A program made the translations under genes and the position numbers. From NCBI GenBank assembly GCA_033875315.1, contig JANRJG010000008.1, positions 1 to 59,022 of the forward strand: 59,022 nucleotides of DNA, given 5' to 3'. Below, in pieces: positions 23,296-41,648 of the stretch. The stretch comes from Candidatus Methylacidiphilales bacterium (GTDB taxonomy: Bacteria; Verrucomicrobiota; Verrucomicrobiia; Methylacidiphilales; CAZTYG01). Every line of letters begins with the position of its first letter. Within the stretch, counting starts at the first letter, position 1. Under the pieces are notes generated by a model. It worked only from the letters and a program-made list of their open reading frames with translations, was not told the DNA's origin and searched no databases.

Positions 23296-25965
23296 GTGGG
23301 CGCAAGCAAACCCGGCGAACTGGGACGACAACAGGGGAGCGGAGCCGTGGCCGGGGCGGGGTCCGAACTATCGCGCCGGAGTACCCGGGCATTGGGGTTC
23401 ATCGTGGTCGTCTCCTTTTTGGAACTGCTCCTGGTTCTGGGGGCGGTCTGGCTATCGCGCCACGATGCGGCACACATCAACATGGGGGGGCGCCAAAGGA
23501 TGCTCTCGCAACGGACTGCTTTTTTTGCCCTGCAACTTTCTTCAGCGCCCGATCCCTCCGCTTATGGGCAATTACTGGGCAAGATCCGTGAAGCCTCGGA
23601 TGAGATGCGTTCGGCCAACGGCCGGTTGAGCGGTGTCAGTCAGGGTATCTGGGGTTCCGGGAGGCTCAAAGAAGTCTACCAGCCCGGGCCGGGTTCGCTT
23701 CACGATCAAGTGGAGAATTACCTTTCCCTGGCCGGCCAGATCGGCTCCTTTCCATATTCCGAACGGGCGGCCGCGCAGCCCTTGATCGAGCAACTCAAGG
23801 CGGAGGCTGCGGGATCGCTGCTGACCCGCCTGGATCAGGCGGTGCTTCTGCACCAGCAAGCGGCGGAAAGTCACTGGAAACAGCTGGTTGGGTTGCAGAT
23901 TGCCCTCTTTTTTCTCAGCCTGCTGGCCATCCTGTCCGCTGGTTGGTTCGGCATCCGCCCGATGACGCGGCAACTGGAAAGAGAAAACCGCGAGTTGTTG
24001 CTGGCGCAGGAAAAGCAGAACGAAGCCGTGCGCCAGGCCGAGGCGGCGAGCATGGCCAAGTCCCTTTTCCTGGCCAACATGAGCCATGAAATCCGGACCC
24101 CGCTCAATGGAATCATAGGCATGGCGGAACTTCTGGCTTCGACCCCACAGGACAGCCAACAGCATGAATTCACCCGTTCGATCCGCAAGAGCGGGGAAAC
24201 CCTCCTGCAGTTGCTCAATGACATCCTGGATTTTTCCAAGATCGAATCCGGGCACATGGATCTGGAACGGATCGAATTCAGTTTGGAGGAAGTGGTGGGG
24301 AACTCGGTGGACCATGTCATCACCCGGGCGGCGGAGAAGGGCGTGGAGATGGGATACAACATCGACCCGGCGGTCCCCCTGAGTCTCATGGGTGATCCGA
24401 CCCGTCTGGGCCAGATCCTCACCAACCTCATCGCCAACGCGGTGAAGTTCACCCAAAAAGGCGAGGTCAGCCTGAAAGTCACCGCGCCAGGGCCCGGATG
24501 GGTTCGCTTCGAGGTGCGTGACAGCGGCATCGGTATTTCCCGCGAGGAACAAGCGCGGTTGTTCAAGACCTTCAGCCAGGTGGACGCATCGACCACCAGG
24601 AAATTTGGCGGCACTGGACTGGGTCTGGCCATCTGCCGGAGATTGTGTGAGCTCATGCAGGGCAAGATCGGGGTGGAAAGCGAATTGGGCCGGGGGAGCA
24701 TGTTCTGGTTTGAGTTGCCCCTGGGGGCGGGTCGTTCGGCCGTGGAGGATCGCACCAAGGTGGTGCATGCCCGCCTCGAGGGCAGGAGGGTGTTCATTCT
24801 TGATGACCAGCAGGTGAACGGAAAGATCCTTGAAATGCACCTGCGCAACTGGGGCATGGAATGCGACATCTTCCTTGAACCGGAGGAAGCGCTTGCCCGG
24901 ATTCGTTCCGGAGTTTCCTACGATCTGGGCTTGGTCGATTACCAGATGCCGGGCATGGACGGGCTGGGTTTCGCGCACCAGGTGCGGAAGATCCTCGACA
25001 AGGACCGCCTTCCGATGATCCTCATTTCCTCGGTGAGTGATCCCGGTTTGATCGCGGACGACCCCGTGCAGCCTTTCCAAGCGGTCGGCCACAAGCCGGT
25101 GCATGCGCCGATCTTGCGCCGGTTGGTGGTCCAGGTGATGGCCGGTTCTAAGCGGCTGCGGCGAATCACCCAGACGGTTTCCCTCAAGCAGGTGAATCTC
25201 GGGCGGGAGTATCCCCTGCGGCTCCTTCTGGCCGAGGACAATCCCACCAACCAGAAGGTTGCGCTCCATCTGCTCAAGCGCCTGGGCTACACCGCGGATC
25301 TGGCCGAAAACGGGCGCATGGCGGTGGAAATGGCGGGACGGGGGGGATACGATCTTATCTTCATGGACGTGCAAATGCCGGAAATGGACGGCCCGGAGGC
25401 CACCGCAGAAATCCGGCGCCTTCCCGGAATCCGCCAGCCGCGCATCGTCGCCTTGACGGCCAATGCCATGAAAGGGGACAGGGAACGCTACCTGGCCGCC
25501 GGGATGGACGATTACCTGAGCAAGCCGGTGCGGTTGGAGGACCTGGAGGAGGCCTTGTTGCGTGCTGTTGTTCCTGCTGATCCGGCTTTGGCGGGGCAAG
25601 GTCGGGAGGAGGCGGCGACCGGGGAGGAACTGGAGGTCGATGTCACGCAGGTCGATTCTTTGGTTGATGGATTGGGACCGCAATTTCCGGTTGTGCTGGG
25701 TGAACTCGAGCGAGCATTTGCCGAACGCATCAGAACCTTCCAATCCCTGGCCGCAACCGGTCAATGGGCGGAGGCTCGGGCGACCGCGATCGAATTGGCC
25801 GGTGAAATCCAACCGTTCGGTCTGCGCCGTTTGGTGGAATTTCTGGAGGCGGTGGGCCGTTTCGAGGAAGCCCCGCCGCCCGCCACGCTGGCGGAATGGG
25901 GCCAGTCGATCGCCCTGCTTTTTGACCGGGGACTTCTGGTTCTGAAAGAACGGGCCCGGCTATGA
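23296..25965 (+). CDS. Hybrid histidine kinase with PilJ-type sensor and two receiver domains
   Basis: 889 residues from a GTG start; a slightly later start is possible. The first membrane helix ([19 protein letters not shown]) is followed by a periplasmic sensor opening [12 protein letters not shown], the motif of PilJ/NarX-type N-terminal domains. A second helix ([16 protein letters not shown]) lies near residue 210. HisKA has His264 in [11 protein letters not shown]; the HATPase has NAVKF, DSGIGI and GGTGLGLAI. Receiver 1 has Asp548 in VDYQMPG and receiver 2 has Asp691 in [10 protein letters not shown]. The C-terminal Hpt-like helices lack the phospho-accepting His. The stop overlaps the start of the next kinase (ATGA), so the two are translationally coupled. 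Confidence 0.9.
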
Positions 25966-28900
25966 ATCTGCAGGCCATGGATTACTTGCGGTTTGTTGGA
26001 GCTACGGTTTTCATTTTCCTGGCCGCGGTGTTTTTTTTCCGTCAGTTGATGCGGCCGGCTGCTCCGGGACAATACTGGTGGGTGGTGGTTTTCGCGTCCA
26101 TTGCCGGGCATGAGACGGTGGAATTGATGGAGATTTGGTTCGGGGTGCTGGCGCGGTGGCCCCATCTCAATTTGGCGGTGATGGTGGTGGGCACGGTGGT
26201 GCTGGTTTGTGCCGGTGCCCGGCGTTCTTTCCACACCCCTTTCTTGATCGTCCCGTTTTTGGCGGGCGCGCTCTGCTTCCTTTTGCCCGCCGCGATGCTG
26301 AATGATGGCGAGGTTCTCTTTTCCGTCCTTCTTTTCCCAGTGGCAGGACTTTGGGCTTCTTTTCGGACTCGCCAGTCGGAAACGGAGCCGGGCGCCAGAC
26401 TGTGGTGGATTCTCTTGTCATGCTGGTTCCTTTGTTTTTCCGCAGAGTTTCTGCTGCAATTCTGGAGCTTGTCCGCGTCCCAATGGATGTGGCTTCCGGC
26501 CCTTCTGCTGGTAAGCGGGGTTGCGGTGCTGGTTTGGCGTGATTTGCTGGCCACTCCGATGGAGGGGAGTTTTATCTCCCGTTCGGTCCACTCCGGGAAA
26601 ACACGCACCGATTGGGTGCCCTTGCTGATTCTGGCCCTGATCCTGGCGTTGGGATGGCCGCTGACCCACCTGGCCGGACATTGGGCCTGGCAGGGAATCA
26701 CCGCTTCATTGCTCGACCGCACAGCAGTGGCGGCCGCTTCACTGGATCCGAACCAAGTGGACCAATTGGTGAAAGCACCCAACCCGACCCAGGCTCCTTC
26801 TTATGGGGCCATCCGGGAAATTCTCGGGCGCATGCACCGGGCTGACGCGCGGATGCGTTATGTCTATCTCATGGGGCAGAAGCAGGGCCGGGTGGCGTTT
26901 TTGGCCGAGGCAGAAGGGCCGGACAATGCGGTTCCCGGGGAGGCCTATGAAGATGCCAGCCCGGAATTGGTGGCGTCCTTCACCAATGGAAAAGCATTCG
27001 TCGAGGGTCCCTTGCCTGATGCCTGGGGAATCTGGGTCTCAGCGCTGGTTCCCTTGCCCGATGAAAACCGGGGAGTGCGGGCGGTTTTTGGCATCGATCT
27101 GGATGCCCACGAAGTCATGGCGGAAGTGGCCAAGTACCGGATGGTGGCCGTTTTGGGCACCGGATCGATGGCTTTGATTGTGCTCGGGTTTTCCCTCAGC
27201 CTGGTCTGGAGTCGGCACCAGTCCCGCCGTCTCGAATCCATTGAGTTGCAGGCCCGCTTGCTCGACCGGGCCATCGGCCAGATCAATACCGGCGTGGTCA
27301 TCGCCGACATGTCGCTGCCGGATCATCCATTGATTTACGTCAATCCAGCCTTCACCCGCATGACCGGATATGGAAAGGAGGAATGCCTGGACCGGAATTG
27401 CCGTTTCCTCCAGGGGCCGGAGACCTCGGGCGCGGAAATCAGGAGAATCCGCGAGGCCGTCCGCCTCCACCAAGCCTGCACCGTGACCCTGCTCAATTAC
27501 CGGAAAGATGGGTCCTCGTTCTGGAACGAACTCACGCTTTACCCGATTTTCTCATCCGTAGGGATGTTGGCCTATTACGTTGGCATCCAGAACGATGTCG
27601 GTGAACGGGTTCTTTTCCAAGAGGCATTGAAAGTGGCCAAAGATGCCGCGGAGCAGGCCAACCGAGCCAAGTCCCATTTCCTGGCCAACATGAGCCATGA
27701 GATCCGCACCCCGCTCAACGGCATCATTGGCTCGATTGAACTGATGGAAAGTCGTCTGCAATCGGACGATATGAACGAGTACCGGGACACACTCCGCGCC
27801 AGCGCCGACCACCTGCTCTCGTTGATCAACGACATCCTGGATTTTTCCAAGATCGAATCGGGCAAAGTGGAACTGGAGGAGGTGACGGTGGATCTTCCCC
27901 TCCTGGTCGAGGAGGTGTTCGATCTGGTACGCGGGCCCGCGGGAAAAAAGAAACTGGCCATGGCCCATTTCTGGGAGTCGGACTCCCCGAGGGAGGTCCG
28001 GGGAGATCCGGTTCGTCTGCGGCAGATCCTGCTCAATCTACTCAGCAACGCGGTCAAGTTCACCTCGGAGGGCGAGGTGCGCCTGATGGTGGGTCCAGCC
28101 GGCCCGTCGGGCTGGGAACTGGAAGTGAGCGATACCGGCGTGGGATTGAGTCCGGAACAACAGGCGCATCTTTTCCAGCCCTTTGCCCAGGCAGATGCCT
28201 CGACGACGCGCCGATTTGGTGGCACCGGATTGGGCCTGGCCATCATCAAGAGGCTGGTCGAACAGATGGGGGGAGGGGTGGGTTTGGAAAGCAGGGCCGG
28301 AGAAGGCGCCTGCTTCAAGGTGCGGTTGCCGCTGCCCGTGCTCAACCGGGTCAAGGATGGACCGCTTCCCCGCGATTGGAAGGGCAGGACGATCGGCCTT
28401 TGTGGCATCGAACCCCTGACAGCCCGGTGTATCAAATCGGCGGCGGCGGTCTGGGGCGTGTATGTGCGCATTGAATCGATCGAGACCTGGGATCCGTCCA
28501 GACCCGGGGTGTCGGCATGGCTCCTGGGCGAAGAATTGGCGGGAAGGGTCCTGGACGGGCAGAGGTCGGTGCCCGCGCACGTGCCAGTTCCGGTGGCCGT
28601 GGTGGCCTCGGGCCTGCAGAGCCCGGCGCTGTCCGTACCGGTGCTCGCCTGGCCGTTGCGTCCGGGCAGGTTGCGGCATCTCCTGAAAAACTGGTCGGCG
28701 TCCTCCTCCGCTGTCGACGAGGACAAGACCAGCCCGAAATCCGTGGCAGTCAGCGCGAACCCCCTGGATATTCTGGTGGCGGAGGACAACCAGATCAATC
28801 AACGGATCGCGGTGGAGATGCTCCGTCGCCTGGGACACCGGGTCGAGAGCGTATCCGATGGCCGAGCCGCCGTTTTGGCGGTGGAGTCGCACGCGTTCGA

Positions 28901-29483
28901 TCTTGTTTTCATGGACGTCCAGATGCCGGTCATGGGCGGACCGGAGGCGGCGGCGGAAATCCGCAGCCGGATGACCGGTAGGAGACGTCCTTACATCGCC
29001 GCCCTGACCGCCAATGCCCTGATGGGGGACCGCGAGAAATTGATCGCCGGGGGGATGGATGATTACCTCAGCAAGCCGGTGACTCGGACGAAACTGCAGG
29101 AAGTGATCGAACGGGCGCAGCTTGCACGGTCGATGGGGCCCGCGTTGGATGCCGGGGCGCTTGAGGCCATGGCCCAGGGATGGCCCCCGGAATTTGAAGA
29201 GATTTACCAGGGCTTTGTCAGGGAAGTGCCCGGCATGTTGGAGCGGTTGTTCCGCGCCGAAGCGGGGGAAGCCCGCAATCTGGCCCATCAGTTGAAAGGA
29301 AGCGCCTCCAGTTTCGGCTTCAAGGCCTTTGCCGGAATGATGGCCTCGCTGGAGTCCGAGGCCAAGGAAGGCCGGTTGCCACCGGGCGGAAGCACGGCAA
29401 AGGCGGGAGAACTCTGGGCCCGTTCTGTTGCCGAGGCCGGGGAAGTGCGCAGCAGGCTTCGCGTTGATATCCCCAAGGGTTGA
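25962..29483 (+). CDS. LOV-domain hybrid histidine kinase with receiver and Hpt
   Basis: 1173 residues. Six or so membrane helices (1-230) precede a Cache-like extracytoplasmic segment ending in VFGIDLDA and a further helix. Residues about 430-550 are a PAS domain with LOV flavin-site features: [10 protein letters not shown] containing Cys480, the Asn residues in [13 protein letters not shown], and the Gln of YYVGIQNDV. HisKA has His579 in [11 protein letters not shown], and the HATPase has NAVKF, DTGVGL and [10 protein letters not shown] degenerate receiver without the acceptor Asp (about 800-925) comes before a complete receiver with Asp985 ([10 protein letters not shown]) and an Hpt domain with His1109 (AHQLKGSA). 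The architecture supports a full internal phosphorelay, probably set by blue light. Confidence 0.9.
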
Positions 29484-29762: not shown

Positions 29763-30137
29763 CTAACTACTGACCAGCAGTTGCTTCACCTGTTCTTGCA
29801 TTTGGATCGGACTGAAGGGTTTGGTGACAAAATGGGATACGCCCAGCTGTCCGGCTTCGTCGCGCATCGTTGCGGCTCCCCGTGCGGTCAGGATGATCAC
29901 GGGCATGGTGGCCCCCTCCTTCAACCGACGGAGTTCACGCACGGTTTCGAATCCATCCTTACCCGGCATCATCACATCAATGACCAACAAATCGACCCCT
30001 CCTTGGGCGACACGGGCCAGGGCTTGTTCGCCGTCGGAGACCGATTCCACTTTGCAGCCGATCTTGCCCAGGGTGAAGGTGAGCAGGCGCAGCATGTGCT
30101 TTTCGTCGTCGCACAGTAGGATGGTTTTGTTGTTCAT
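29763..30137 (-). CDS. Single-domain response regulator
   Basis: 124 residues, one receiver domain and nothing else. The acidic pocket is LLCDDEKH, the phospho-acceptor is Asp54 in VIDVMMPGKDG, the Thr is in IILTARG and the Lys is in FVTKPFSP. With no output domain it acts as a phosphate shuttle or by binding a partner. Its start overlaps the stop of the RsbW-like/PP2C gene (ATGA), which suggests that it and the phosphatase act together. A hybrid kinase with an Hpt domain converges on it from the other side and could be its phosphodonor. Confidence 0.9.
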   Translation of the reverse strand: MNNKTILLCDDEKHMLRLLTFTLGKIGCKVESVSDGEQALARVAQGGVDLLVIDVMMPGKDGFETVRELRRLKEGATMPVIILTARGAATMRDEAGQLGVSHFVTKPFSPIQMQEQVKQLLVSS

Positions 30138-31864
30138 GGGAGGGGGAGTCTTTCCAAGACCAGGAGACTGCGGTCGTCGCCCGCCGCACGGTTGCCGCAG
30201 AATTCGTCGATCTCCGAGAGTATCCGCTCACAATACTGTGGCAACGGCAGGTCGCGCAGGCGGTCGGCGATGGCCAGCAGACGCTGCATGCCCAGTAGTT
30301 CGCCACTGGGGGATTCGGCTTCAAAGAGGCCGTCGGTCTGGAGGAGCAACCGGTCTCCGGGGAGAATCTGGACCGTCGACGCGCTGTAGTTCTGGTCATC
30401 CACGATGCCCAGCGGGAACCCTCCATCGCCCATGATGATTCTGGGTTCACCGCTGGCAGGGACGAGCAGGGCGGGCCCGTGACCGGCGCTGCAAAGGTTG
30501 ACGTTTCCGTTTTCCAAATCGGCGTAGGCACACTGACAGGTGATGAACATGTCGAGATGACCCAGATCTTGGAAGAGTTGGGCGGCGATTTCCGCCATCA
30601 ATTGCTCCGTTTTCGGGGCCATGGAAGAGCGGGCGTGGACGGCCGTGCGGAGGATGGTGGCCAGAAGGGCGGCCGAAACCCCTTTGCCCATGACATCGGC
30701 AATGAGCAGAAAAAGCCCCTCCTGTCCCACCGGCAGAACGTCGAGGTAGTCCCCCCCGACTTGGCGGGCACTACGGCAGATACCGTGGGTGCGGTAACCC
30801 GGCGGGGAGGGGAATTGCTTGGGCAGGAGCTGTTGTTGGATCTGTGCGGCGATTTCCAGTTCGCGCAGGGCGCGTTGTTCCTGCGAACGCTGGCGTTGGA
30901 GTTGGTCGAGGGCGATGGCGATGCCAAGAAAGTCGGCGAATGTCCGGGCGATGTGGAGCTGACCGGCGTTGAAATACGGCTGGGAAGTTTCGCGGCCCAG
31001 AACCAGGACACTGAGGATCGTCTCGCTGAAAGAAACCGGGCAGGCGTAGCACTGCCCGATGGCATGGAGTGGATCGGAGGGATCGAGGGCCGCCGACCGC
31101 TCGACGGTGGCATCCTGGTGGCTGGTGAAAACCCCGCCTTCCAACCAGGAAGGCCGGGTCTCGCGTTCCTGGGGAAAGCCCGGGGGTGGGGTGCCGACTT
31201 CCAGCCGGGTGACGATCTTTGCCGATTCCGGCTTGAGTTCCGCCAGGTAGACCCAATGGCAGTCGAGTAGTATTTTGAGTTGTAAGAGCGATTGCTGAAG
31301 AAAGCCCTGGAAGTCCCTGCTGGTGGCGAGCGCATCACCCAACCGGAAGAGGGTCGAGAGATTCTCATAACTGATGCTGAGTTCTTCCGTCATCGAGCCG
31401 AGGGTGGATTCGATTTCGGCCGGGGATTCCTGGTGGAAGGAGGCGGGTCCGGTGATTTTCTCCAGCAGGATCTGGTGTCCGCCGGGCACGGAGAGGTGCT
31501 GGACCCGGTCCACCAATTGCTCCATGAGGAAGAGGCCGCGACCGCGTTCGGAGAAGGGGTCCTCGGGTTGTGACGCGGTTTTTTCCGGTTGGAAGTTTCC
31601 GGGGTCCTGCACGCGGATGCGGAAGGTTTCATCCTGCCACTCCCAGAAGAGGGAAATTTGTTTCGCCGGATCGAGTTGGGCCCCGTGTTCGGCTGCGTTG
31701 TTGGCCGCCTCGGTGGCGGCAAGCTCGATGGCTTGGAGAGGGTCCGGGGACATGCCGTGGGTGCGGCAAAAGCGGACAAGCAGGGCAACGGCCTTGCGGA
31801 CGTCCTCCAAGCGTGCGGGGAAAGCGCAGCCACCGCCTTCATGGTGGACGAAATCCGGTTTCAT
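30134..31864 (-). CDS. RsbW-like kinase, GAF and SpoIIE/PP2C phosphatase fusion
   Basis: 576 residues. Residues about 15-135 are an RsbW/SpoIIAB-like ATPase: ATEAANNAAEHG (N box, Asn56), QDPGNF (Asp87) and SERGRGLFLMEQLVD (glycine-rich lid). A linker and GAF-like domain follow (about 160-335, including CHWVYLAELK and GQCYACPVSF). Residues about 350-575 are a SpoIIE-type PP2C phosphatase with its metal Asp residues: QVGGDYLDVL, IADVMGKGVSAAL, QTDGLFEAE and AGDDRSLLVL. It could both phosphorylate and dephosphorylate STAS proteins. Three candidate substrates are encoded nearby: Ser310 and Ser420 of the WecG fusion and Ser58 of the STAS protein at 35010. The start at 31864 overlaps the upstream stop (ATGA). 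Confidence 0.88.
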   Translation of the reverse strand: MKPDFVHHEGGGCAFPARLEDVRKAVALLVRFCRTHGMSPDPLQAIELAATEAANNAAEHGAQLDPAKQISLFWEWQDETFRIRVQDPGNFQPEKTASQPEDPFSERGRGLFLMEQLVDRVQHLSVPGGHQILLEKITGPASFHQESPAEIESTLGSMTEELSISYENLSTLFRLGDALATSRDFQGFLQQSLLQLKILLDCHWVYLAELKPESAKIVTRLEVGTPPPGFPQERETRPSWLEGGVFTSHQDATVERSAALDPSDPLHAIGQCYACPVSFSETILSVLVLGRETSQPYFNAGQLHIARTFADFLGIAIALDQLQRQRSQEQRALRELEIAAQIQQQLLPKQFPSPPGYRTHGICRSARQVGGDYLDVLPVGQEGLFLLIADVMGKGVSAALLATILRTAVHARSSMAPKTEQLMAEIAAQLFQDLGHLDMFITCQCAYADLENGNVNLCSAGHGPALLVPASGEPRIIMGDGGFPLGIVDDQNYSASTVQILPGDRLLLQTDGLFEAESPSGELLGMQRLLAIADRLRDLPLPQYCERILSEIDEFCGNRAAGDDRSLLVLERLPLP

Positions 31865-33036
31865 CCCTGGTCTCCGGTGGAGAATAACAGGGACGCGCGG
31901 CGGCGGATCATGGCCCGCATGCCGGGGGTGTCGGCGAAGAGCTGCATGGCGGCGTGCGGCCATTCGAGCTGATCCCCGGCGCTGTGGCTTCCATGGAGAT
32001 CGGACAGGGCGAGCAGCCCGGGCCGGGCCTGGCGCAGGCGTTCCGCGGTCTCCGCAGGAACGTCCGCCAGATCGGAAGCACGGCGGGGGAGGGTGCCGAT
32101 CCAGGTGAAATGTCCTTGGGCGATCTCCCTCAGCCAGTCGTGGCGGCGAAGGATGAGAGGTCCGCACAAACCGGTCTCAATGCGGGTACTCTTGGAACCC
32201 GGAAGGTGCACGTCCCAGACCGAAGTGCCCCGGCAGAACAGGCGGGCCGGAAGCCAAAGCAGCAGCCAGAGGAGGGCGGCGGAGGCGCGGCCAAGAAGGC
32301 CGGTTTTTCCCGGCTCGGCCGAGTTGCGTCCGGAAACCAGGTCGTCATGCAGATCCAGGCGGAGGTGACGTTCCAGATCGAGCACGACCCCGCCATCGGC
32401 GGCACGATGGTGCCAAAGGGTGCGCTCACCCAGGCAGGTGTCGGCCAAGATGATGCTCCGGGTGATTTCAGAGTGAGGGCCGATGAAGCAGCGGTCGCCG
32501 ATGAGGGCCTCCGGCCCGATGACCGCCCCGGCGTCAATTTCGCACCCGGCACCGATACGGTAGGGAGGCCTGAGTTGGGCGGCGGGATGGATGCGGACAC
32601 GGGGCCCGATCCATGCGCCATGGCCGTGGGAGACATCGATGTGTTGTTCGCCCGCTTGGCGGCCGGCCAGCCACTCGAAATTCAATTGGGACCACAGGGC
32701 CAGCAAGCCGGCGGCGTCCCGAGGTTCGGCAATCTGCGAACCACCGGGAAGCCCGGCCAGGCGTATTCCCTGATCCGGCAGTTTTTCGTTGGCGGTTGGC
32801 ACCCGGATCTCGACCGGGCGGGACCAGCGTTGGTGGCGCTCGAAGTGGGCGCGGATTTCCGAGGGCCGGTCGGCCACGACCAGGGTGATTCTTTCGGCAC
32901 CGGTGCGTACGGCATGGTCCATCCAGTGGGACAAGAGGGGTTCATCGCCGACCGGCCAAAGAATGAACGGCAACGGGTTGCGCCAGATGGTGTCGAGGTG
33001 TCCCCAATCGGGACAGATCCAGACCGGTGCTTTCAT
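31861..33036 (-). CDS. Sugar nucleotidyltransferase-like / left-handed beta-helix protein, probably degenerate
   Basis: 391 residues. The N-terminal 110 residues have the order of a sugar nucleotidyltransferase (LPFILWPVGDEPLLSHWMD) but lack the GGxGxRL nucleotide loop. Residues about 135-215 are hexapeptide repeats of a left-handed beta-helix (WIGPRVRIHPAAQL, YRIGAGCEIDAGAVIG, ALIGDRCFIGPHSEI). A hydrophobic segment (ALLWLLLWLPARLF) follows, and the C-terminal 100 residues recall the tail of initiating sugar transferases without the acidic catalytic residues. It is probably a scaffold or regulator for the sugar transferase encoded 1 base downstream. Its stop overlaps the start of the PP2C protein (ATGA), physically linking EPS synthesis to the regulator. 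Confidence 0.6.
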   Translation of the reverse strand: MKAPVWICPDWGHLDTIWRNPLPFILWPVGDEPLLSHWMDHAVRTGAERITLVVADRPSEIRAHFERHQRWSRPVEIRVPTANEKLPDQGIRLAGLPGGSQIAEPRDAAGLLALWSQLNFEWLAGRQAGEQHIDVSHGHGAWIGPRVRIHPAAQLRPPYRIGAGCEIDAGAVIGPEALIGDRCFIGPHSEITRSIILADTCLGERTLWHHRAADGGVVLDLERHLRLDLHDDLVSGRNSAEPGKTGLLGRASAALLWLLLWLPARLFCRGTSVWDVHLPGSKSTRIETGLCGPLILRRHDWLREIAQGHFTWIGTLPRRASDLADVPAETAERLRQARPGLLALSDLHGSHSAGDQLEWPHAAMQLFADTPGMRAMIRRRASLLFSTGDQG

Positions 33037-33037
33037 T

Positions 33038-33778
33038 TCAGTAGGCCCCCTTGCCCAGCAAGACGGCCGGGATGGTCAGGAAGAGCAGCTTCAAGTCCAC
33101 CCAGATGCTTTCGGAGCGGATGTATTCCAGATCGAGGCGGACCTGTCCGGCGAAGTCGATGTCGCTCCGTCCGCCAACCTGCCAGAAGCAGGTGAGGCCG
33201 GGCCGGACCATCAGGCGGCGGCGTTCTTCGACCGAATAGAGGGCGACCTCGCGGGGCACCGGCGGGCGCGGACCGACCAGGGACATGTCGCCCCGGAAGA
33301 CGTTCCACAATTGCGGCAATTCATCGATGGAGTACTTGCGGATGAAACGTCCGATCGGGGTGATGCGGGGATCGTCTTTCATCTTGAAAATGACCCCTCC
33401 GGCCACTTCGTTCTGTTGCAGGAGTTGGTCCTTGAGGGCGTCGGCGTTGGGCACCATGGAACGGAATTTCCACATGCCAAAGGCCCGCCCGAAGCGGCCG
33501 ACCCGTTGCTGGCAGAAAAAGACCGGCCCTCCATCGCGGCGGATGATCAGGGCCACCACCAGAAAGAGGGGGGAAAGCGCGAGGAGTCCACAACCGGAGG
33601 CGAAGAGATCGAGGAGGCGCTTGAGGGCGCCGGAGCCGTCGACCACGGTGCGCCAGAGCCTTTTTTTGATCGCCAGTTGCAACCGCATCTGCCAACGCGT
33701 GGCCGGATCGGAGGCACGGGCCCAGTACAGCATGGATTCCAGGTCTTCCGGGCCGGGTGATTGCGGGGCGGAGTTCAA
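33038..33778 (-). CDS. Initiating sugar-phosphate transferase (WcaJ/PglC-like)
   Basis: 246 residues. KRLLDLFASGCGLLALSPLFLVVALI is the membrane anchor, shown here in context at about residue 53. The cytosolic core has FGMWKFRSMVPNAD, DDPRITPIGRFIRKYSIDELPQLWNV (two adjoining pieces), GDMSLVGPRPP and RPGLTCFWQVGGRSD. These are the motifs of polyprenyl-phosphate hexose-1-phosphate transferases, which attach the first sugar of an EPS repeat to undecaprenyl phosphate. The start is a TTG at 33778 that overlaps the stop of the GT4 gene (TTGA). The next in-frame ATG is 15 codons later and would also leave the fold intact. It is probably the committed first step for the EPS made here. Confidence 0.9.
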   Translation of the reverse strand: MNSAPQSPGPEDLESMLYWARASDPATRWQMRLQLAIKKRLWRTVVDGSGALKRLLDLFASGCGLLALSPLFLVVALIIRRDGGPVFFCQQRVGRFGRAFGMWKFRSMVPNADALKDQLLQQNEVAGGVIFKMKDDPRITPIGRFIRKYSIDELPQLWNVFRGDMSLVGPRPPVPREVALYSVEERRRLMVRPGLTCFWQVGGRSDIDFAGQVRLDLEYIRSESIWVDLKLLFLTIPAVLLGKGAY

Positions 33779-34953
33779 GTCCGGGCTCCTTTGCCGCTGT
33801 GGGCCAGTTCGGCCAGACGTCTTCCCAGTCGGGTGATGTAGTCGTCAAAATCGTAATCGCGGTTGACCCGGATCCTGCCATTTTCGCCCATGGAGCGGGC
33901 CCGGTTTTTATCACCAAGGATTCCGTCCACGGCGGCGGCGAAGGCATCCCGGTCCATCCAGGGGACGAGGTGGCCGTTTTCCCCATCGGTCAACCAGTCG
34001 GAAATCCCGCCGGCATCGAAGGCGACGACCGGCAGGCCGAAGCGCATGACCTCCAGTCCGACGGTGGCGATGGGCTCGGGCCAGACCGAGGGAATGAGGA
34101 CGGCGGAAGCTTCGGCATAGTATTGCCGGAGTTCGTCCTGTGGAATGAAACCCGCGAAACGAACGCGGTCCTGGAGGCCCAGTTTGCGGGTGAGTTTTTC
34201 GCAGGCGGGCTTGTGGTGGCCATCGCCGAGGACGATGAGTTCGAAGGGGTGTTTCAATCGGGCCAGGGATTCGAGCATGACGTCGACGCCCTTGCCGCGG
34301 ATGATCTGGCCGGCGTAGACGAGGAGGTTGCGCTCGGAGAAGCTGCTGGTGAGGGGCGGGGCCGGGCGGGGAACCGGCGGGAAAATCTCAATGCGCGCGG
34401 GATCAAAGCGGTTGATTTCCAACTCGTGGCGCATGTATTGGGTGACGACAAAGTGGGCGGAAAAACGTCGGTTGGTTTCGATTTCGCGCAGCTTGGCGGA
34501 ATAACTTTGCCAGGAAAAGGGGAGTGCCCCTCCGCGTTGCCGCTTCAAGGGCGCCAGGCAGGGGACGACACACCAGGGCGAGGCGGGGCGGCGGCAGATC
34601 TTCCGGTTGAAGACGTTGTATTTGTAGCTGCGCAGACAGTAAATGTCATGGTCGTGGACCATGCGGGCGGCGGGAATGCCGGAAGAGAGCAGGGTTTCCA
34701 GACTGGAAAGATCGTCCCATTTGTGGACATAGAGGACATCGGGTTGGAAGGAGGCCAGGGCCGCGGCGGGATCCCCGCAAAAGAGGTTTGGGGCGAAGAG
34801 GGAATCCCAGGCGGCCTCGGACTTGCCGCTGCGGCGGCGGTGCAGCAACCCGATATCCCAACCGGCCTTTTTCAATTCGGTGGCGGTGATGTGGACATTG
34901 GCCTCGGCCCCACCCAGGCTGCCCAAGGTTTCATGAACGTAGAGAAGTTTCAT
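33775..34953 (-). CDS. Family 4 glycosyltransferase
   Basis: 392 residues, GT-B fold. MKLLYVHETLGSLGGAEANV provides the acceptor-side glycine loop. A Cys-rich patch (CLRSYKYNVFNRKICRRP, CVVPC) lies near residue 115-140 and is seen in some capsule GT4 enzymes. The donor site has LLVYAGQIIRGKG and IPSVWPEPIATVGLEVMRFG, the EX7E pattern. It is the first gene of the minus-strand run that ends with the response regulator at 29763 and is divergently oriented from the STAS gene, 56 bases away. Confidence 0.9.
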   Translation of the reverse strand: MKLLYVHETLGSLGGAEANVHITATELKKAGWDIGLLHRRRSGKSEAAWDSLFAPNLFCGDPAAALASFQPDVLYVHKWDDLSSLETLLSSGIPAARMVHDHDIYCLRSYKYNVFNRKICRRPASPWCVVPCLAPLKRQRGGALPFSWQSYSAKLREIETNRRFSAHFVVTQYMRHELEINRFDPARIEIFPPVPRPAPPLTSSFSERNLLVYAGQIIRGKGVDVMLESLARLKHPFELIVLGDGHHKPACEKLTRKLGLQDRVRFAGFIPQDELRQYYAEASAVLIPSVWPEPIATVGLEVMRFGLPVVAFDAGGISDWLTDGENGHLVPWMDRDAFAAAVDGILGDKNRARSMGENGRIRVNRDYDFDDYITRLGRRLAELAHSGKGART

Positions 34954-34966
34954 GAACTTGTACGCA

Positions 34967-34994
34967 ATTCTATATTTACCGGTCCACGCGACAA
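34967..34994 (-). promoter_or_regulatory. Possible sigma-70-type promoter for the GT4 gene
   Basis: On the minus strand TTGTCG (34994-34989) and TAGAAT (34972-34967) are separated by 16 bases and lie just upstream of the ATG at 34953. The -10 matches the consensus at 5 of 6 positions and the -35 is poor. The 56-base divergent spacer must hold promoters for both directions; nothing clearer is visible for the STAS gene. Confidence 0.25.
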
Positions 34995-35009
34995 GCTAAT
35001 ATCCCGGAT

Positions 35010-35315
35010 ATGGGAACCATCGTTGCAGTGGAAACCGAGGGCACGTCGCTCCGGCTTTCTGTGAAAGCGGAACGGTTGGACGCCGCCTCAGCGCGCATCT
35101 TCAAGCAGGAAGTCGAGTCGGCCTGGCCGCCCGGGGCGGCCCAGGTGGTGATCGATCTGGCGGCCGTGGCTTTTGTGGATAGTTCCGGGATAGGTGCGAT
35201 CCTGGGTATTTACAAAAAATTGCCCACCGGCGGCGTGGTGCTGACCAACGTCCGACCCCAGGTGCGCACGGTGATCGAGTTGCTGCGCCTGCACCGGATT
35301 TTCGAGATCCGGTGA
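35010..35315 (+). CDS. Stand-alone STAS (anti-anti-sigma factor-like) protein
   Basis: 101 residues, one STAS domain of standard length. VVIDLAAVAFVDSSGIGAI contains the phosphorylation site; Ser58 falls at the same residue number as in SpoIIAA. In characterised systems the unphosphorylated form binds and sequesters an RsbW-type kinase. The only RsbW-like domain in this window is in the PP2C protein at 30134-31864, so that is its likely partner. The stop overlaps the GTG start of the next gene (GTGA), so the two are translationally coupled. It is transcribed divergently from the EPS genes. Confidence 0.9.
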   Translation: MGTIVAVETEGTSLRLSVKAERLDAASARIFKQEVESAWPPGAAQVVIDLAAVAFVDSSGIGAILGIYKKLPTGGVVLTNVRPQVRTVIELLRLHRIFEIR

Positions 35316-36451
35316 GCCGGGAGGGAAGGACTACGATTTCCCAGAACCGTTATTTCCCGGAGACCTGCCCTGAATTGTCGGACAGGTTGGACGGTTATCT
35401 TGAGGCTCTGGGAAACCGTCTACGCGCCCAGGAATGGGCGGGAGCGGATCACCTTCTCCTGCTCGGCGGAGGGTATGGTCGCGGGGAAGGCGGGATTCAT
35501 CGGGTTGAGGGGTCGCCTCCCTCCCTTTACAACGACCTGGAGTTTTACCTTGTGGTGCCTGCGCCGGCCGTGAACCGGGCGCGGGCCTGGTGTGCGCAGG
35601 AAAGCCACCTTGGGGAGGAGGCGACCGGCATTGAAGTGGAATTCAAGGTGATGCCGCGGTCCGCATGGCGGAAGTCCACTCCGGGCATGTTCACGTATGA
35701 TTTGGCGGTGGGCCATGTGCTGGTTTCGGGCGATGAAGCCATTCTGGCCGAGCTGGCGCCGGAAATCCTTGATCCCGGCCGCATCCCGCTGCTGGAGGCC
35801 ACGCGTCTGTTGTTCAACCGTGGCAGCAGCTTGTACTTCGCCGGCCACGCGCTTCGTTTTCAAACCGAGCGGTCGCAGGGGCCCTACGTGGAGCGGGTAC
35901 AATCCAAGCTGAAGCTGGCCCTGGCCGATGCCGTCCTGGCGGCACGGGGGGGCTATGATCGTTCATGTCTGGTCCGCCGTGAACGTGCGGCCGAGCTGAC
36001 AGGTGATCTGCCACCCGATTGGCCGCAGATGCTGGCGTGGCATGCGGAGGGGGTGGAATTCAAGTTGCATCCGGTGCACCGAGCCGCTGGAAGGCAAGCG
36101 TTGGAACAAAGCCAAGCGGATTTGCAGCGGGTGTGGGCTTCCACTTGGCTGTGGTTGGAAAGTGTCCGCCTGGGGCACGGTTGGGATGACCTCGCCGCAT
36201 ACGCACAATGGAAGGGCGATCTCGTGCCGGGCGGGAGCGGCTTGCGTTCATTCCTGCTCCGGGTGCGGGACGGCCTGCGTTATCGGGAAGTGTTGCCGAA
36301 CTGGTCCCGGGCGCCCCGGGCCAGCCTGATGCGGGCCTTGGCCGCAGTGCATGGGGGAAGGGAAGATCTGGCCGCGGCCGCACTGGGTGTTTCCGTGGAT
36401 TCCCGTTTGATCCACGACAGCTTCCGGCGTTGGTGGCTGCGTTACAATTGA
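35312..36451 (+). CDS. Nucleotidyltransferase-like protein coupled to STAS gene
   Basis: 379 residues from a GTG start overlapping the STAS stop (GTGA). An N-terminal motif LLLGGGYGRGEGG, followed about 25 residues later by YNDLEFYLV, resembles the GG(S/G)xxxG...DxE/D metal site of pol-beta-type nucleotidyltransferases. The Asp and Glu are present, so it could be catalytic. The rest is helical with several Trp and matches nothing I recognise. There is no signal peptide or membrane segment. Tight coupling to a STAS gene suggests its activity or localisation is regulated by partner switching. The function is unassigned. Confidence 0.65.
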   Translation: MSREGRTTISQNRYFPETCPELSDRLDGYLEALGNRLRAQEWAGADHLLLLGGGYGRGEGGIHRVEGSPPSLYNDLEFYLVVPAPAVNRARAWCAQESHLGEEATGIEVEFKVMPRSAWRKSTPGMFTYDLAVGHVLVSGDEAILAELAPEILDPGRIPLLEATRLLFNRGSSLYFAGHALRFQTERSQGPYVERVQSKLKLALADAVLAARGGYDRSCLVRRERAAELTGDLPPDWPQMLAWHAEGVEFKLHPVHRAAGRQALEQSQADLQRVWASTWLWLESVRLGHGWDDLAAYAQWKGDLVPGGSGLRSFLLRVRDGLRYREVLPNWSRAPRASLMRALAAVHGGREDLAAAALGVSVDSRLIHDSFRRWWLRYN

Positions 36452-37297: not shown

Positions 37298-37358
37298 CGG
37301 CTTGGTGCAGTGGTGATTGTCTTCTGGCGAAGCCGGAAAAGTCCACTATTTTCAGGAC

Positions 37359-38813
37359 ATGGCCTACGACTCGATGCAGGAATTTGCCGCTGTGCTGGAA
37401 GCGGCGGGGGAATTGGTGCGGGTGCGGGAACCCCTTTCGGTGGATTTGGAGATTGCCGCCCTGGCCGACCGGGAGATGAAAAAACCCGGCGGGGGAAAGG
37501 CCCTGCTGGTGGAAAAGCCGCTGTTGTCCGACGGCTCTCTTTCCCGCTTTCCCCTCCTGGTCAACAGCATGGGCAGCCATCGCCGCATGGCCATGGCCCT
37601 GAATGTGGGCGATGTGGACGAGGTCGCCGCCCAACTTGGATTCCTCATGAAGGCCAAGCCGCCCAAGTCGTTGGGCGATGCCTTTGAGTTGGTGCGCAAC
37701 GGCATCGATGTCGTCCACGCCAAGCCCTGGACCGTCCGCACCGGCCCCTGCAAGGATGTCATCCTCCGCGATGGCCCGGGCCTGGCCGCCCTGCCCGTGT
37801 TGAAATGCTGGCCGGAGGACGGGGGGCCGTTCGTCACCCTGCCCAATGTCCACACCCAGGATCCCGACACCGGCGAGCGGAATGTGGGCATGTACCGCAT
37901 GCAGGTGTTTGATGGGTGGACCACCGGGATGCACTGGCAGGTGCACAAGGTGGCCGCGCGTCATGGTCGCCGTTATGTCGAAACCGGCCGACGCATGCCC
38001 GTGGCCGTCTGTCTGGGCGGCGATCCAGTGTACACCTTTTCCGCCACCGCCCCCCTGCCGGACGGGCTGGATGAACTCCTGTTGGCGGGTTTTCTGCGCA
38101 AGAAGGCGGTACCGTTGGTCAAATGCGAGACCTCGGATCTGATGGTTCCCGCGAACAGTGATTTTGTCATCGAGGGATATGTCGATCCGACCGAGCCGCT
38201 GCGCGATGAGGGTCCCTTCGGCGACCACACCGGTTTCTACACCCCGGTGGACAAGTATCCCGCATTCCACGTCACCTGCATCACCCACCGCAGCGATGCC
38301 ATCTATCCGGCCACCGTCGTGGGAAAACCCCCGATGGAGGATTTCTACATCGGCGGCGCAAGCGTGCGCATCTTCCTCCCGGTGTTCAAAATGAATTTTC
38401 CCGAGATCGTGGACATCGCCCTTCCGGCCGAGGGGGTCTTCCACAACCTGGTCTTTGTCAGCATCAAGAAGCAATACCCCTATCAAGCTTTCAAGATCAT
38501 CAACGGGCTGTGGGGCATGGGGCAGATGATGTTTTCCAAGATCATTGTCTGCGTCGACGCCGATGTCGATGTGCACAACACCAGCGACGTGCTCTTCCAT
38601 CTTTGCTCCAACATCGATCCCGAGCGGGACACGATCTTCACCAAGGGGGTTTGTGACAGCCTCGACCATGCGCCGACGGTGCCGAACATCGGCACCCACA
38701 TGGGTATCGATGCCACGACCAAGCTGCCGGGCGAAGGATACACCCGGGGTTGGCCCAAGCGTTGCACCCACCCGGGAGAATTGTTGGATAAAATCGCCCG
38801 ATTGCCCCTCTAA
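37359..38813 (+). CDS. ubiD: UbiD-family decarboxylase
   Basis: 484 residues. The start MAYDSMQEFAAVLEAAGELV is typical of UbiD proteins, so ATG 37359 is chosen over an upstream TTG. The prenylated-FMN site is represented by the E-D-E type region around ERNVGMYRMQ, EGYVDPTEPLRDEGPFGDH and the C-terminal PGEGYTRG. UbiD enzymes decarboxylate aromatic acids using prenylated FMN made by UbiX. With ubiX, ubiA and mqnE downstream, the likely substrate is a prenylated dihydroxynaphthoate of the futalosine menaquinone pathway. It is the first gene of that operon. Confidence 0.92.
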   Translation: MAYDSMQEFAAVLEAAGELVRVREPLSVDLEIAALADREMKKPGGGKALLVEKPLLSDGSLSRFPLLVNSMGSHRRMAMALNVGDVDEVAAQLGFLMKAKPPKSLGDAFELVRNGIDVVHAKPWTVRTGPCKDVILRDGPGLAALPVLKCWPEDGGPFVTLPNVHTQDPDTGERNVGMYRMQVFDGWTTGMHWQVHKVAARHGRRYVETGRRMPVAVCLGGDPVYTFSATAPLPDGLDELLLAGFLRKKAVPLVKCETSDLMVPANSDFVIEGYVDPTEPLRDEGPFGDHTGFYTPVDKYPAFHVTCITHRSDAIYPATVVGKPPMEDFYIGGASVRIFLPVFKMNFPEIVDIALPAEGVFHNLVFVSIKKQYPYQAFKIINGLWGMGQMMFSKIIVCVDADVDVHNTSDVLFHLCSNIDPERDTIFTKGVCDSLDHAPTVPNIGTHMGIDATTKLPGEGYTRGWPKRCTHPGELLDKIARLPL

Positions 38814-38872
38814 ATGCGTGGGCGGCACCGATCGTGCTTTCCATGGCACGCCGGACCGGCTATGAAATGGGG

Positions 38873-40075
38873 ATGAACAGCCATGTACGGCTGCTGGGCT
38901 TGTGGTTCATGGCGGTCGCCCCGCTCCGGGCCGCCGGAGAGCTCAACTATTCCAACGACATCATCCGCCAGAGGGTCAACGATGTTCCCGCTGTCCAGGC
39001 CCGCAGTCTGCTCAATGCGGATGTGGTCGACCTTGAGTTCAAGGTGGATGATTTCTCCTCCCGCGAGTCGTCTTTTTCCGGCAAGAACTTCAAGCGCCCC
39101 TCCGTCAATCAGAAGTACCGCACCCTGCTCCGTAGCAGGTTCGGGGACGGGTTGGTCTGGGAGAGCGGTCTGGATCTGGCTGTCTCCCGGACCAGTCTCT
39201 GGGACAACACGGGACGCGAGAATGTCAACGCGTTTTGGAAGCCGGAATACCTCAACCGCTTCATCATCCGTCCGAATGAAAAGTCGGAATGGGTGGTGAG
39301 CCAAAGCACCTCGCTGGAACAACGCTCCGACACCCAGGGGACGACCGAGTTCTGGCGGGCCCATATGGCTTTCCGCCAGCAGATCACCCGCATGACCGAG
39401 ATGCGCCTGGAGGCCTGGCACGACAACACGGAGCCTGCGGGTCCCCGGCGGGCCATCAGCACCGATGCCGCTTCCTTTTCGGTTTCGCAGCAGTTGGGGA
39501 CCCCGAATCTCAAACTGCGGCTCGGAGGGAAGATCCTCCAACAGGATCACCAGGAGCGATCATGGGACGACCGTGAGATCCTCCGGCGGGAGGCGGGGCT
39601 GGACTGGCGGTTGACGCCGCTCTTCAGCCTCTACGGGGGAACGGCATGGGAGGAGGAAGATCGCCCGCAATGGATACGGCAGGAGGAGCGGTTGCTCTAC
39701 GAATTACGGGGCAAGTGGACCCCGGACCCCATCTTCCAGCTCACCGGGGGTCTATCGCTTGACAGCCAACAACAGGCCGGAGGGGACAGCGGGCACAGCC
39801 GCGTTTTCTTGCGGGGCGATCTCAAGCACGATGCCGATCTCTCCACCTTCCTTCACGCGCGCTGGGAGCAGTGGGAGCGCACGGATCCCGATGGAACCGA
39901 GGTTTCCGGCCAGGAGAAGGTTTTCGTTGGCGCGGGACAGGATGTGCAGATCGATCCTTCCACCCGTTTCACGGCGGAATACGCCATGGCGGACGAGAGC
40001 CAATATGGCAGAAGCGGCCGGGATGAGTCCCTCGTGGAACACATGATTTCTTTCCTGGTCACGACGCAGTTCTGA
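38873..40075 (+). CDS. Predicted secreted beta-barrel-like protein in menaquinone operon
   Basis: 400 residues from the ATG at 38873. That start is chosen because it gives a signal peptide (MNSHVRLLGLWFMAVAPLRA) ending near AAG. The mature part has alternating strands rich in Trp, Arg, Asp and Glu (WRAHMAFRQQITRMTEMRLEAWHD, shown in part) and ends in Phe (TTQF). Strand alternation and a terminal aromatic residue suggest an outer-membrane beta-barrel. I recognise no specific family. It lies between ubiD and ubiX on the same strand with 50-60 base gaps, although nothing in menaquinone synthesis calls for an outer-membrane protein. Confidence 0.65.
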   Translation: MNSHVRLLGLWFMAVAPLRAAGELNYSNDIIRQRVNDVPAVQARSLLNADVVDLEFKVDDFSSRESSFSGKNFKRPSVNQKYRTLLRSRFGDGLVWESGLDLAVSRTSLWDNTGRENVNAFWKPEYLNRFIIRPNEKSEWVVSQSTSLEQRSDTQGTTEFWRAHMAFRQQITRMTEMRLEAWHDNTEPAGPRRAISTDAASFSVSQQLGTPNLKLRLGGKILQQDHQERSWDDREILRREAGLDWRLTPLFSLYGGTAWEEEDRPQWIRQEERLLYELRGKWTPDPIFQLTGGLSLDSQQQAGGDSGHSRVFLRGDLKHDADLSTFLHARWEQWERTDPDGTEVSGQEKVFVGAGQDVQIDPSTRFTAEYAMADESQYGRSGRDESLVEHMISFLVTTQF

Positions 40076-40126
40076 TCATTTGGAAAGCCGGTTGGCCAAG
40101 CAGCGGATTGCCCTTATTCTGGCTTT

Positions 40127-40687
40127 GTGAAAATTGTCGTCGCCATCACCGGGGCCAGCGGCTCGCTCTACGCCCAGCGCCTTCTGGCGTTGTTGGACGG
40201 GGCCGGCCATGAAATCCATGTTTGTTTGAGCAGCCATGCCCGCGAGGTGGCCGAGGCGGAAACCGGCGGGCTGGCCATTCCGGAAGGATTCACGGTCCAC
40301 TCCGACCGGACGATGCAGGTGCCCTTCGTCAGCGGCTCGGCCCGATTCGATGCCATGGTGGTGGTTCCCTGTTCGATGGGCACGGTTGGACGGATCGCCC
40401 ATGGCTATTCCGACAGCACGATCACCCGTGCGGCCGATGTGTTTCTCAAGGAAAAGCGCAAACTCATCCTCGTTCCGCGCGAGACGCCGTGGAACCTCAT
40501 CCAGGCGCGCAACATTGTCACGGTGCTCGAGGCCGGAGCGCTGGTTCTGCCCGCCATCCCTTCCTTCTACGGCCGGCCCTCCAGCGTGGAGGAAGTGGTG
40601 GACACCGTGGTGGCACGCATCCTTGACCATTTGGGGATAACACATGACTTGGTGGCCCGCTGGAAAGAACCCCGGGTGGAGGACTGA
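40127..40687 (+). CDS. ubiX: UbiX flavin prenyltransferase
   Basis: 186 residues from GTG 40127. The N-terminal FMN site is VVAITGASGSLYAQRLL; VVVPCSMGTVGRIAHGYSD and LVPRETPWN are family motifs. UbiX joins a dimethylallyl group to FMN and produces the prenylated FMN cofactor for UbiD. That fits the ubiD gene upstream in the same operon. Length and motif order are normal for the family. Confidence 0.93.
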   Translation: MKIVVAITGASGSLYAQRLLALLDGAGHEIHVCLSSHAREVAEAETGGLAIPEGFTVHSDRTMQVPFVSGSARFDAMVVVPCSMGTVGRIAHGYSDSTITRAADVFLKEKRKLILVPRETPWNLIQARNIVTVLEAGALVLPAIPSFYGRPSSVEEVVDTVVARILDHLGITHDLVARWKEPRVED

Positions 40688-40735
40688 CGACAATCCGCTT
40701 TGCTCGATGCGATTCCCGCGTATGTTGGTTGGCCC

Positions 40736-41626
40736 ATGCATGCGTCAAACCAGGCCCAAGCGGAGGCCGAAGCGGCCCCATCCGAGCCTGTTTGGCTGCG
40801 CTTCGGACGTTTCATCCGCCTTTCCCACACGGTGTTTGCCCTTCCGTTTGCGCTCGTCTCGATGCTGGTGGCCGCCCGCGGACTTCCCCCATGGCCCGTG
40901 GTGGGTTGGATTCTGCTCTGCATGGTATCCGCCCGCACCGCGGCCATGTTGTTCAATCGCCTGGCCGATTGGGACATCGACCAGTTGAACCCGCGAACCC
41001 AGGACCGTCACCGCCTCGTGCCCAAACCCCTGGCCCGTGCGGCCTGGGTGGTTTCGGTGGCTGTATTTGTTCTCGGCGCCTGGCAACTCAACCTCCTTTG
41101 CCTGGTGCTGGCACCGGTCGCGATTGGCATCATTTCTTTTTATTCCCTCTGCAAACGATTCACTGCCTACGCTCATCTGTTCCTGGGCCTGGCCCTGGCG
41201 GTCGCCCCCATGGGGGCCTGGGCGGCGGTGAGCGGTGAGTTATGGTCCCCGGCGCCCTATCTTCTGGCGATGGGGGTGCTCTGCTGGGTCTTCGGCTTCG
41301 ATCTCATCTATGCCACCCTCGACATGGAGTTCGACCGCAAGGCGGGCCTGCACAGCTTCCCGGCGCGCTACGGCTTGACCGCTGCCCTCCGGCTGGCGGT
41401 CGGGTTGCACGGGATGGCGGCAGTCCTCTTTTTGGTCTTCGGCTGGTGGGCGGGTTTCGGTTGGATCTACCTTGTTGCCTGGCTGGCCTGCGTGGTTGCC
41501 TTGGTTTACGAACACCGGCTGAGCCGCCAAGGCGACCCCACTTCGATCAACCGTGCCTTTTTCGCCGTCAATGCCGTGGTGGGCCTTTTGCTTTTGTCCG
41601 GCACGGCCTTAGATGTATTCTTCTGA
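40736..41626 (+). CDS. ubiA: UbiA-family polyprenyltransferase (menaquinone pathway)
   Basis: 296 residues from ATG 40736, with eight or so membrane helices. The two prenyl-diphosphate/Mg sites are present: NRLADWDIDQLNPRT after helix 2 and DLIYATLDMEFDRKAG after helix 6. Family members prenylate 4-hydroxybenzoate or, in futalosine organisms, a 1,4-dihydroxy-6-naphthoate. Together with mqnE downstream the second is more likely here (MqnP role). An alternative start at 40700 exists. The stop lies 23 bases before the preferred mqnE start. Confidence 0.92.
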   Translation: MHASNQAQAEAEAAPSEPVWLRFGRFIRLSHTVFALPFALVSMLVAARGLPPWPVVGWILLCMVSARTAAMLFNRLADWDIDQLNPRTQDRHRLVPKPLARAAWVVSVAVFVLGAWQLNLLCLVLAPVAIGIISFYSLCKRFTAYAHLFLGLALAVAPMGAWAAVSGELWSPAPYLLAMGVLCWVFGFDLIYATLDMEFDRKAGLHSFPARYGLTAALRLAVGLHGMAAVLFLVFGWWAGFGWIYLVAWLACVVALVYEHRLSRQGDPTSINRAFFAVNAVVGLLLLSGTALDVFF

Positions 41627-41648
41627 CCCTCGCGACACCCCACAGACC

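Follow-up and report, generated by a model that had tools for sequence, protein, structure and literature searches.

A partner-switching module in a polysaccharide locus with a STAS-tagged glycosyltransferase as its probable output

The 59,022-nucleotide stretch analysed here (the window) is contig C8 of the 3.15 Mb, 42-contig genome of a Candidatus Methylacidiphilales bacterium. It contains a polysaccharide locus encoding an RsbW-like serine kinase joined to a SpoIIE-type phosphatase, a single-domain response regulator, a stand-alone STAS protein and a WecG-type glycosyltransferase that ends in two STAS domains. The parts, their motifs and their co-location are observed directly. Together they probably constitute a partner-switching module that works without a sigma factor and has the polysaccharide glycosyltransferase itself as its output, with phosphotransfer and its direction inferred. 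The recurrence of the same parts in a second phylum, the Chloroflexota, suggests direct on/off control of slime production. The components of the module and the genes packed with them are the following.

21770-23176, minus strand: WecG/TagA/CpsF (GT26) glycosyltransferase with two C-terminal STAS domains (residues about 259-364 and 367-468; Pfam, AlphaFold2 (AF2) model)
29763-30137, minus strand: single-domain response regulator, receiver (REC) domain only (Pfam Response_reg)
30134-31864, minus strand: RsbW-like serine kinase domain (residues 15-134) and SpoIIE PP2C phosphatase domain (residues 382-572) (Pfam)
31861-33036, minus strand: hexapeptide-repeat/nucleotidyltransferase-like protein (Pfam)
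33038-33778, minus strand: polyprenyl-phosphate sugar-phosphate transferase (Bac_transf; Pfam/NCBIfam)
33775-34953, minus strand: GT4 glycosyltransferase (Pfam)
35010-35315, plus strand: stand-alone STAS protein with acceptor Ser58 (Pfam; alignment to SpoIIAA 1auz/1th8)

The original prediction had named the fused kinase-phosphatase, a response regulator coupled to it by ATGA, a stand-alone STAS protein with Ser58 and two further STAS domains on an exopolysaccharide enzyme at 21770, and each of these parts was recovered with Pfam matches above the curated cut-offs. The kinase and phosphatase domains (HATPase_c_2, 8e-24; SpoIIE, 6e-44) lie in one protein and are separated by a region without a Pfam match. 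The response regulator gene starts inside the stop codon of the kinase-phosphatase gene (ATGA, 4-nt overlap), and the latter's own ATG (31864) has the same kind of overlap with the end of the hexapeptide-repeat gene (31861). Neighbouring genes on the minus strand, from GT4 through REC, overlap by 4 nt or are separated by a single base, so the REC and kinase-phosphatase genes are coupled to the sugar-transfer genes; we read the GT4, sugar transferase, hexapeptide-repeat, kinase-phosphatase and REC genes as a single tightly packed operon. A longer 677-aa open reading frame of the kinase-phosphatase, beginning at GTG 32167, was rejected as a mechanical over-extension, and the start at ATG 31864 (576 aa) agrees with where the domains begin as well as with the overlap.

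The motifs of these parts are intact. Motif counts over all collected loci show kinase residues E53, N57, D88, G109 and G111 kept in 38/38, the PP2C metal-site residues D47, D65 and D186 in 38/38 and D239 in 36/38, and the phospho-acceptor Asp of REC in 35/35. The locus combines a GHKL serine kinase of the RsbW type with N and G boxes, a STAS acceptor Ser and the Asp residues of a SpoIIE-type PP2C phosphatase.

The product of 21770-23176 matches Glyco_tran_WecG (4e-60, 202.8 bits) and contains two additional STAS stretches. Its AF2 model (predicted local distance difference test (pLDDT) 73.6, predicted TM-score (pTM) 0.51) superimposes on TagA/TarA (5wfg) with a VIA-align Z of 26.5, and each of its STAS domains matches STAS proteins with Z of about 12-13. 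Residues T37, D65 and R221 of TagA are reported to be catalytic (PMC6493773); the equivalents T42, D70 and R229 are all present in the window enzyme and are kept in 64/68, 67/68 and 67/68 fused enzymes, respectively. Family profile, fold and the catalytic Thr/Asp/Arg place the protein in the GT26 WecG/TagA/CpsF family, and its predicted role is in the synthesis of a surface polysaccharide. The C-terminal appendage, by which TagA completes its active site at the membrane, is immediately followed by the STAS pair. For TagA, a membrane-associated monomer is reported to be active and a soluble dimer inactive (PMC6493773).

In one genus, the operon-linked WecG-STAS-STAS enzymes (L052 8715-10217, L054 10862-12352 and L057 8531-10021) carry T42M and N44D, losing the TagA Thr37 equivalent together with the next Asn. 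Second copies of the fusion in genomes G071 and G079 (L050, L056) keep the Thr, and the substituted, operon-linked protein is, judged from sequence, possibly a regulatory pseudoenzyme. Other kinds of fusion in this enzyme family are seen in L139, L141, L142, L161 and L163, where the WecG domain lies within much longer frames of about 660-860 aa.

Candidate phospho-acceptors are present in all three STAS domains of the window. Ser58 of the stand-alone protein aligns with Ser58 of SpoIIAA (1auz), and Ser310 and Ser420 of the glycosyltransferase each start the second helix of a STAS fold in the AF2 model. Several STAS domains initially looked dead because the second residue of the D-S-x motif was taken as the acceptor; this assignment was rejected, as the SpoIIAA alignment and the 1tid mutant (DASG) point to the first Ser. 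The acceptor Ser is found in 50/50 stand-alone STAS proteins, 64/68 fused STAS1 and 58/61 fused STAS2 domains. A canonical Asp-Ser/Thr site occurs at least once in 58 of the 59 tandem pairs (STAS1 only in 32, STAS2 only in 17, both in 9, neither in 1), and the window enzyme belongs to the nine with both. The STAS1 site is canonical in 33/35 loci with a kinase vs 14/33 without one, counts that are not tree-corrected and for which L047, L048, L058 and L060 were set as kinase-present by hand on grounds of contig breaks or distance.

Relatives were collected with the WecG-STAS-STAS protein as the query, and the loci were thus picked by the enzyme and not by its neighbours. Full-length fusions were found in the order and class of the window and in metagenome-assembled genomes of Chloroflexota (a separate named collection). 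The Chloroflexota loci show the order sugar transferase, WecG-STAS-STAS, hexapeptide-sugar transferase, STAS, PP2C, a separate RsbW of 139-153 aa, and REC. Here the hexapeptide relative, detected by neighbourhood BLAST between WecG-STAS-STAS and STAS, is fused to a sugar transferase. STAS, PP2C and RsbW are present in 11/11 of the Chloroflexota loci with enough flank and REC in nine of them, and a draw of 400 Chloroflexota genomes yielded 17 strong fusions, of which one had been counted before and 12 new ones have the complete set. In the window's phylum, the parts recur in several arrangements: an operon of STAS, STAS, kinase/phosphatase, REC and WecG (L052, L054, L057), the set near WecG (L092, L107, L112), the window's own layout (L049, L064), and REC, PP2C and kinase joined in one protein (REC-PP2C-RsbW in L113 and L116; REC-PP2C in L119). 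In genomes with a single-STAS fusion (G106, G090, G263, G277), the kinase-phosphatase lies farther off on the same contig, at a distance of some 14-33 kb in the cases where both ends could be placed. Three related Chloroflexota fusions (L155, L156, L157) have a flank without the STAS-PP2C-RsbW-REC set, unlike the others.

The genes for STAS, kinase, REC and WecG-STAS-STAS stand in one run in genomes G071, G079 and G064. This arrangement, together with the canonical STAS1 site kept in kinase-bearing loci, argues against a SypE/SypA-like scheme in which the kinase-phosphatase acts on the stand-alone STAS protein only, which then switches the locus on via another target, while the WecG STAS pair answers elsewhere. 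That scheme draws on the invariant acceptor Ser of the stand-alone proteins and on a setting like that of the syp locus, where SypA is a downstream component with an unknown target (PMC10120452); we regard it as unlikely.

A kinase and a PP2C phosphatase lie within about 15 kb in 23/26 Chloroflexota fusions with enough flank and in 10/34 fusions of the window's phylum. Overall, 33 fused WecG genes have them within 15 kb, 27 do not and 9 are unknown, and among non-fused WecG relatives the count is 0/31 (fused 33 vs 27 against non-fused 0 vs 31; crude Fisher 2e-8, kinship ignored). Co-occurrence in related genomes, which the original prediction had put forward as one of its tests, is borne out: the four parts surround WecG-STAS-STAS in two phyla and are not found around non-fused WecG. 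The PP2Cs linked to these loci group into three clades that contain hardly any unlinked members, a count made after L009, L010 and L186 were relabelled as linked genes belonging to G079, G064 and G127.

The regulatory genes might have been inherited with polysaccharide islands by chance or hitch-hiking, without acting on WecG. Such an origin would fit the single clade formed by the Chloroflexota fusions on the WecG tree and a tree-corrected test with too few transitions for significance. It is at odds with a linkage that outlasts fusion, fission, reordering and three phosphatase clades, and with the absence of the parts from all 31 non-fused loci, and we consider it very improbable. This persistence carries more weight for us than the counts. 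Whether such sigma-free switches are widespread, with a phosphorylated STAS domain on a GT26 glycosyltransferase directly gating polysaccharide synthesis and the module assembled more than once with kinases and phosphatases of different lineages, appears to us an evenly balanced question.

Several points weigh against a switch acting on the enzyme or weaken the case for it. The independent-pairs test on the WecG tree is not significant (about six contrasts, of which about 2.4 favour and 0 oppose the association), and 24/34 fusions in the window's phylum have no kinase and PP2C in the searched flank. Genomes of the genus coded g115 give only generic PP2C matches genome-wide. An acceptor Ser is widespread among STAS domains at large. 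Cross-talk is possible, given another RsbW-PP2C protein (on contig C14) and other STAS proteins in the source genome. The kinase-phosphatase, folded without an alignment, reached a pLDDT of only 38, which leaves no usable structure; in a mixed alignment of split and fused forms the kinase rows were misaligned, and it was left out of folding. Phosphotransfer, the choice of STAS substrate, whether control is positive or negative, the inputs through REC and the histidine kinases and the effect on the enzyme are all inferred. The g115 fusions themselves (L110, L114, L115, L117, L118, L120, L121) have a STAS1 of the WLxSLE type and a canonical STAS2, and no kinase-phosphatase lies within 10 kb of them.

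Partner switches of this kind are usually employed by bacteria to control sigma factors. As the original prediction stated, no sigma factor was found among the window proteins scanned with Pfam, so the linked sigma factor of the canonical arrangement is missing from the locus. Moreover, none appeared as a sigma-70 region 2 match within about 20 kb of linked kinase loci among the matches listed for 15 genomes, and the scanned window proteins gave no match to GGDEF, the mark of a diguanylate cyclase as a linked target. The kinase-phosphatase and stand-alone STAS protein could still act on transcription through a sigma factor or regulator elsewhere, with the WecG STAS pair as an adaptor or dimerisation device and co-location reflecting co-regulation of the same polysaccharide. 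Canonical RsbW systems do target sigma factors, and the source genome holds ten sigma-70 region 2 matches and the second RsbW-PP2C protein. The lack of nearby sigma genes among the proteins scanned and the matches listed, the STAS-tagged enzyme as the conserved neighbour and the STAS1 site retained where the kinase is present make this route rather unlikely, if somewhat less so than the SypE/SypA-like scheme. The idea of an enzymatic output, raised in the original prediction, gains support, since the partner that stays with the circuit across relatives is a STAS-tagged glycosyltransferase and no sigma factor is seen nearby.

With the glycosyltransferase as the output, the module may operate as follows. 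Signals, perhaps passing through the adjacent hybrid histidine kinases, would phosphorylate the REC protein, and phospho-REC would set the balance between the serine kinase and PP2C activities of the kinase-phosphatase. This balance would in turn set the phosphorylation of Ser58 in the stand-alone STAS protein and of Ser310 and/or Ser420 in the WecG STAS pair. The stand-alone and enzyme-borne STAS domains would compete for the kinase domain, so that the STAS tail of the enzyme would be either free or kinase-bound/phosphorylated. Depending on the state of its tail, the enzyme could then be active at the membrane or inactive, much as is reported for the two forms of TagA (cf. PMC6493773).

The genes surrounding the module include two candidate upstream inputs and a neighbour of the stand-alone STAS gene.

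23296-25965, plus strand: hybrid sensor histidine kinase, HisKA-HATPase-REC-REC, possible upstream input (Pfam)
25962-29483, plus strand: hybrid sensor kinase, PAS-HisKA-HATPase-REC-Hpt, possible upstream input (Pfam)
35312-36451, plus strand: 379-aa protein with a nucleotidyltransferase-like motif (GGGYGRGE...ND.E)

The stand-alone STAS gene lies outside the kinase operon and is divergent from it, sharing a GTGA overlap with the gene of the 379-aa protein. Neither a Pfam nor a PDB relative was found for this protein, which is kept beside the stand-alone STAS in L049, L064, L058 and L060 and is possibly another STAS-linked enzyme. The flank at 3.6-22 kb carries further polysaccharide genes (Wzy, Poly_export/SLBB, pyruvyltransferase and GT4), and within the locus the product of 11773-13188 (minus strand) combines nitroreductase matches with a C-terminal methyltransferase match. 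Adjoining the locus, UbiD, UbiA and a CofH/MqnC-type radical SAM gene (37317-42716) are suggestive of a futalosine-type menaquinone pathway. Elsewhere in the same genome are two more partner-switch-like groups: G000:C14:99882-104354 encodes a PP2C followed by an RsbW-like domain, with STAS nearby, and G000:C6:13028-15008 a PP2C with STAS.

In the open-access literature searched, we found no paper describing this combination of parts, nor one containing both 'WecG' and 'STAS domain'. The enzyme shares with GT26 TagA/TarA the catalytic core, the Thr/Asp/Arg residues and the C-terminal appendage, whereas TagA/TarA has no STAS domains and its known control is membrane association with a dimer-monomer change (PMC6493773). 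All4160 of Anabaena, a glycosyltransferase for heterocyst polysaccharide (cited in PMC8256260), likewise bears a STAS domain, although a single and N-terminal one. The kinase, phosphatase and STAS folds, the Ser58 equivalent and the catalytic motifs are those of RsbU/RsbV/RsbW and SpoIIE/SpoIIAA/SpoIIAB, from which the locus differs in its fused kinase-phosphatase, its enzyme-borne STAS domains and its lack of a sigma factor. Partner switches acting on diguanylate cyclases are known in SiaC-SiaD, HsbA-HsbD and BgrV-BgrR (PMC8457831). As in these systems (SiaABC-SiaD, HsbA-HsbD, BgrV-BgrR), a STAS or STAS-like protein controlled by a kinase and phosphatase is proposed here to act on an exopolysaccharide or biofilm enzyme; their diguanylate cyclase is bound in trans, whereas STAS is here a covalent part of the glycosyltransferase. 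The likeness to SypE-SypA of the Vibrio fischeri syp locus, noted in the original prediction, holds for function and setting: an RsbW-like kinase and PP2C in one protein, a STAS protein with an acceptor Ser, a receiver input, a polysaccharide locus and no sigma factor (PMC10120452, PMC8256260). It does not extend to the architecture, since SypE is a single chain that includes REC along with kinase and phosphatase (PMC10120452), and REC is a separate gene here; where REC is joined to PP2C/kinase in relatives (G410, G326), the order differs from SypE. The likeness is an analogy drawn from published descriptions. SypA acts below transcription, and the targets of such biofilm STAS proteins are an open question (PMC10120452). 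The window differs in that a candidate target is written into the gene: the two STAS domains of a glycosyltransferase, with kinase, phosphatase and receiver alongside, an arrangement seen in two phyla. If this assignment is true, polymer synthesis could be switched by protein phosphorylation without new transcription or cyclic di-GMP.

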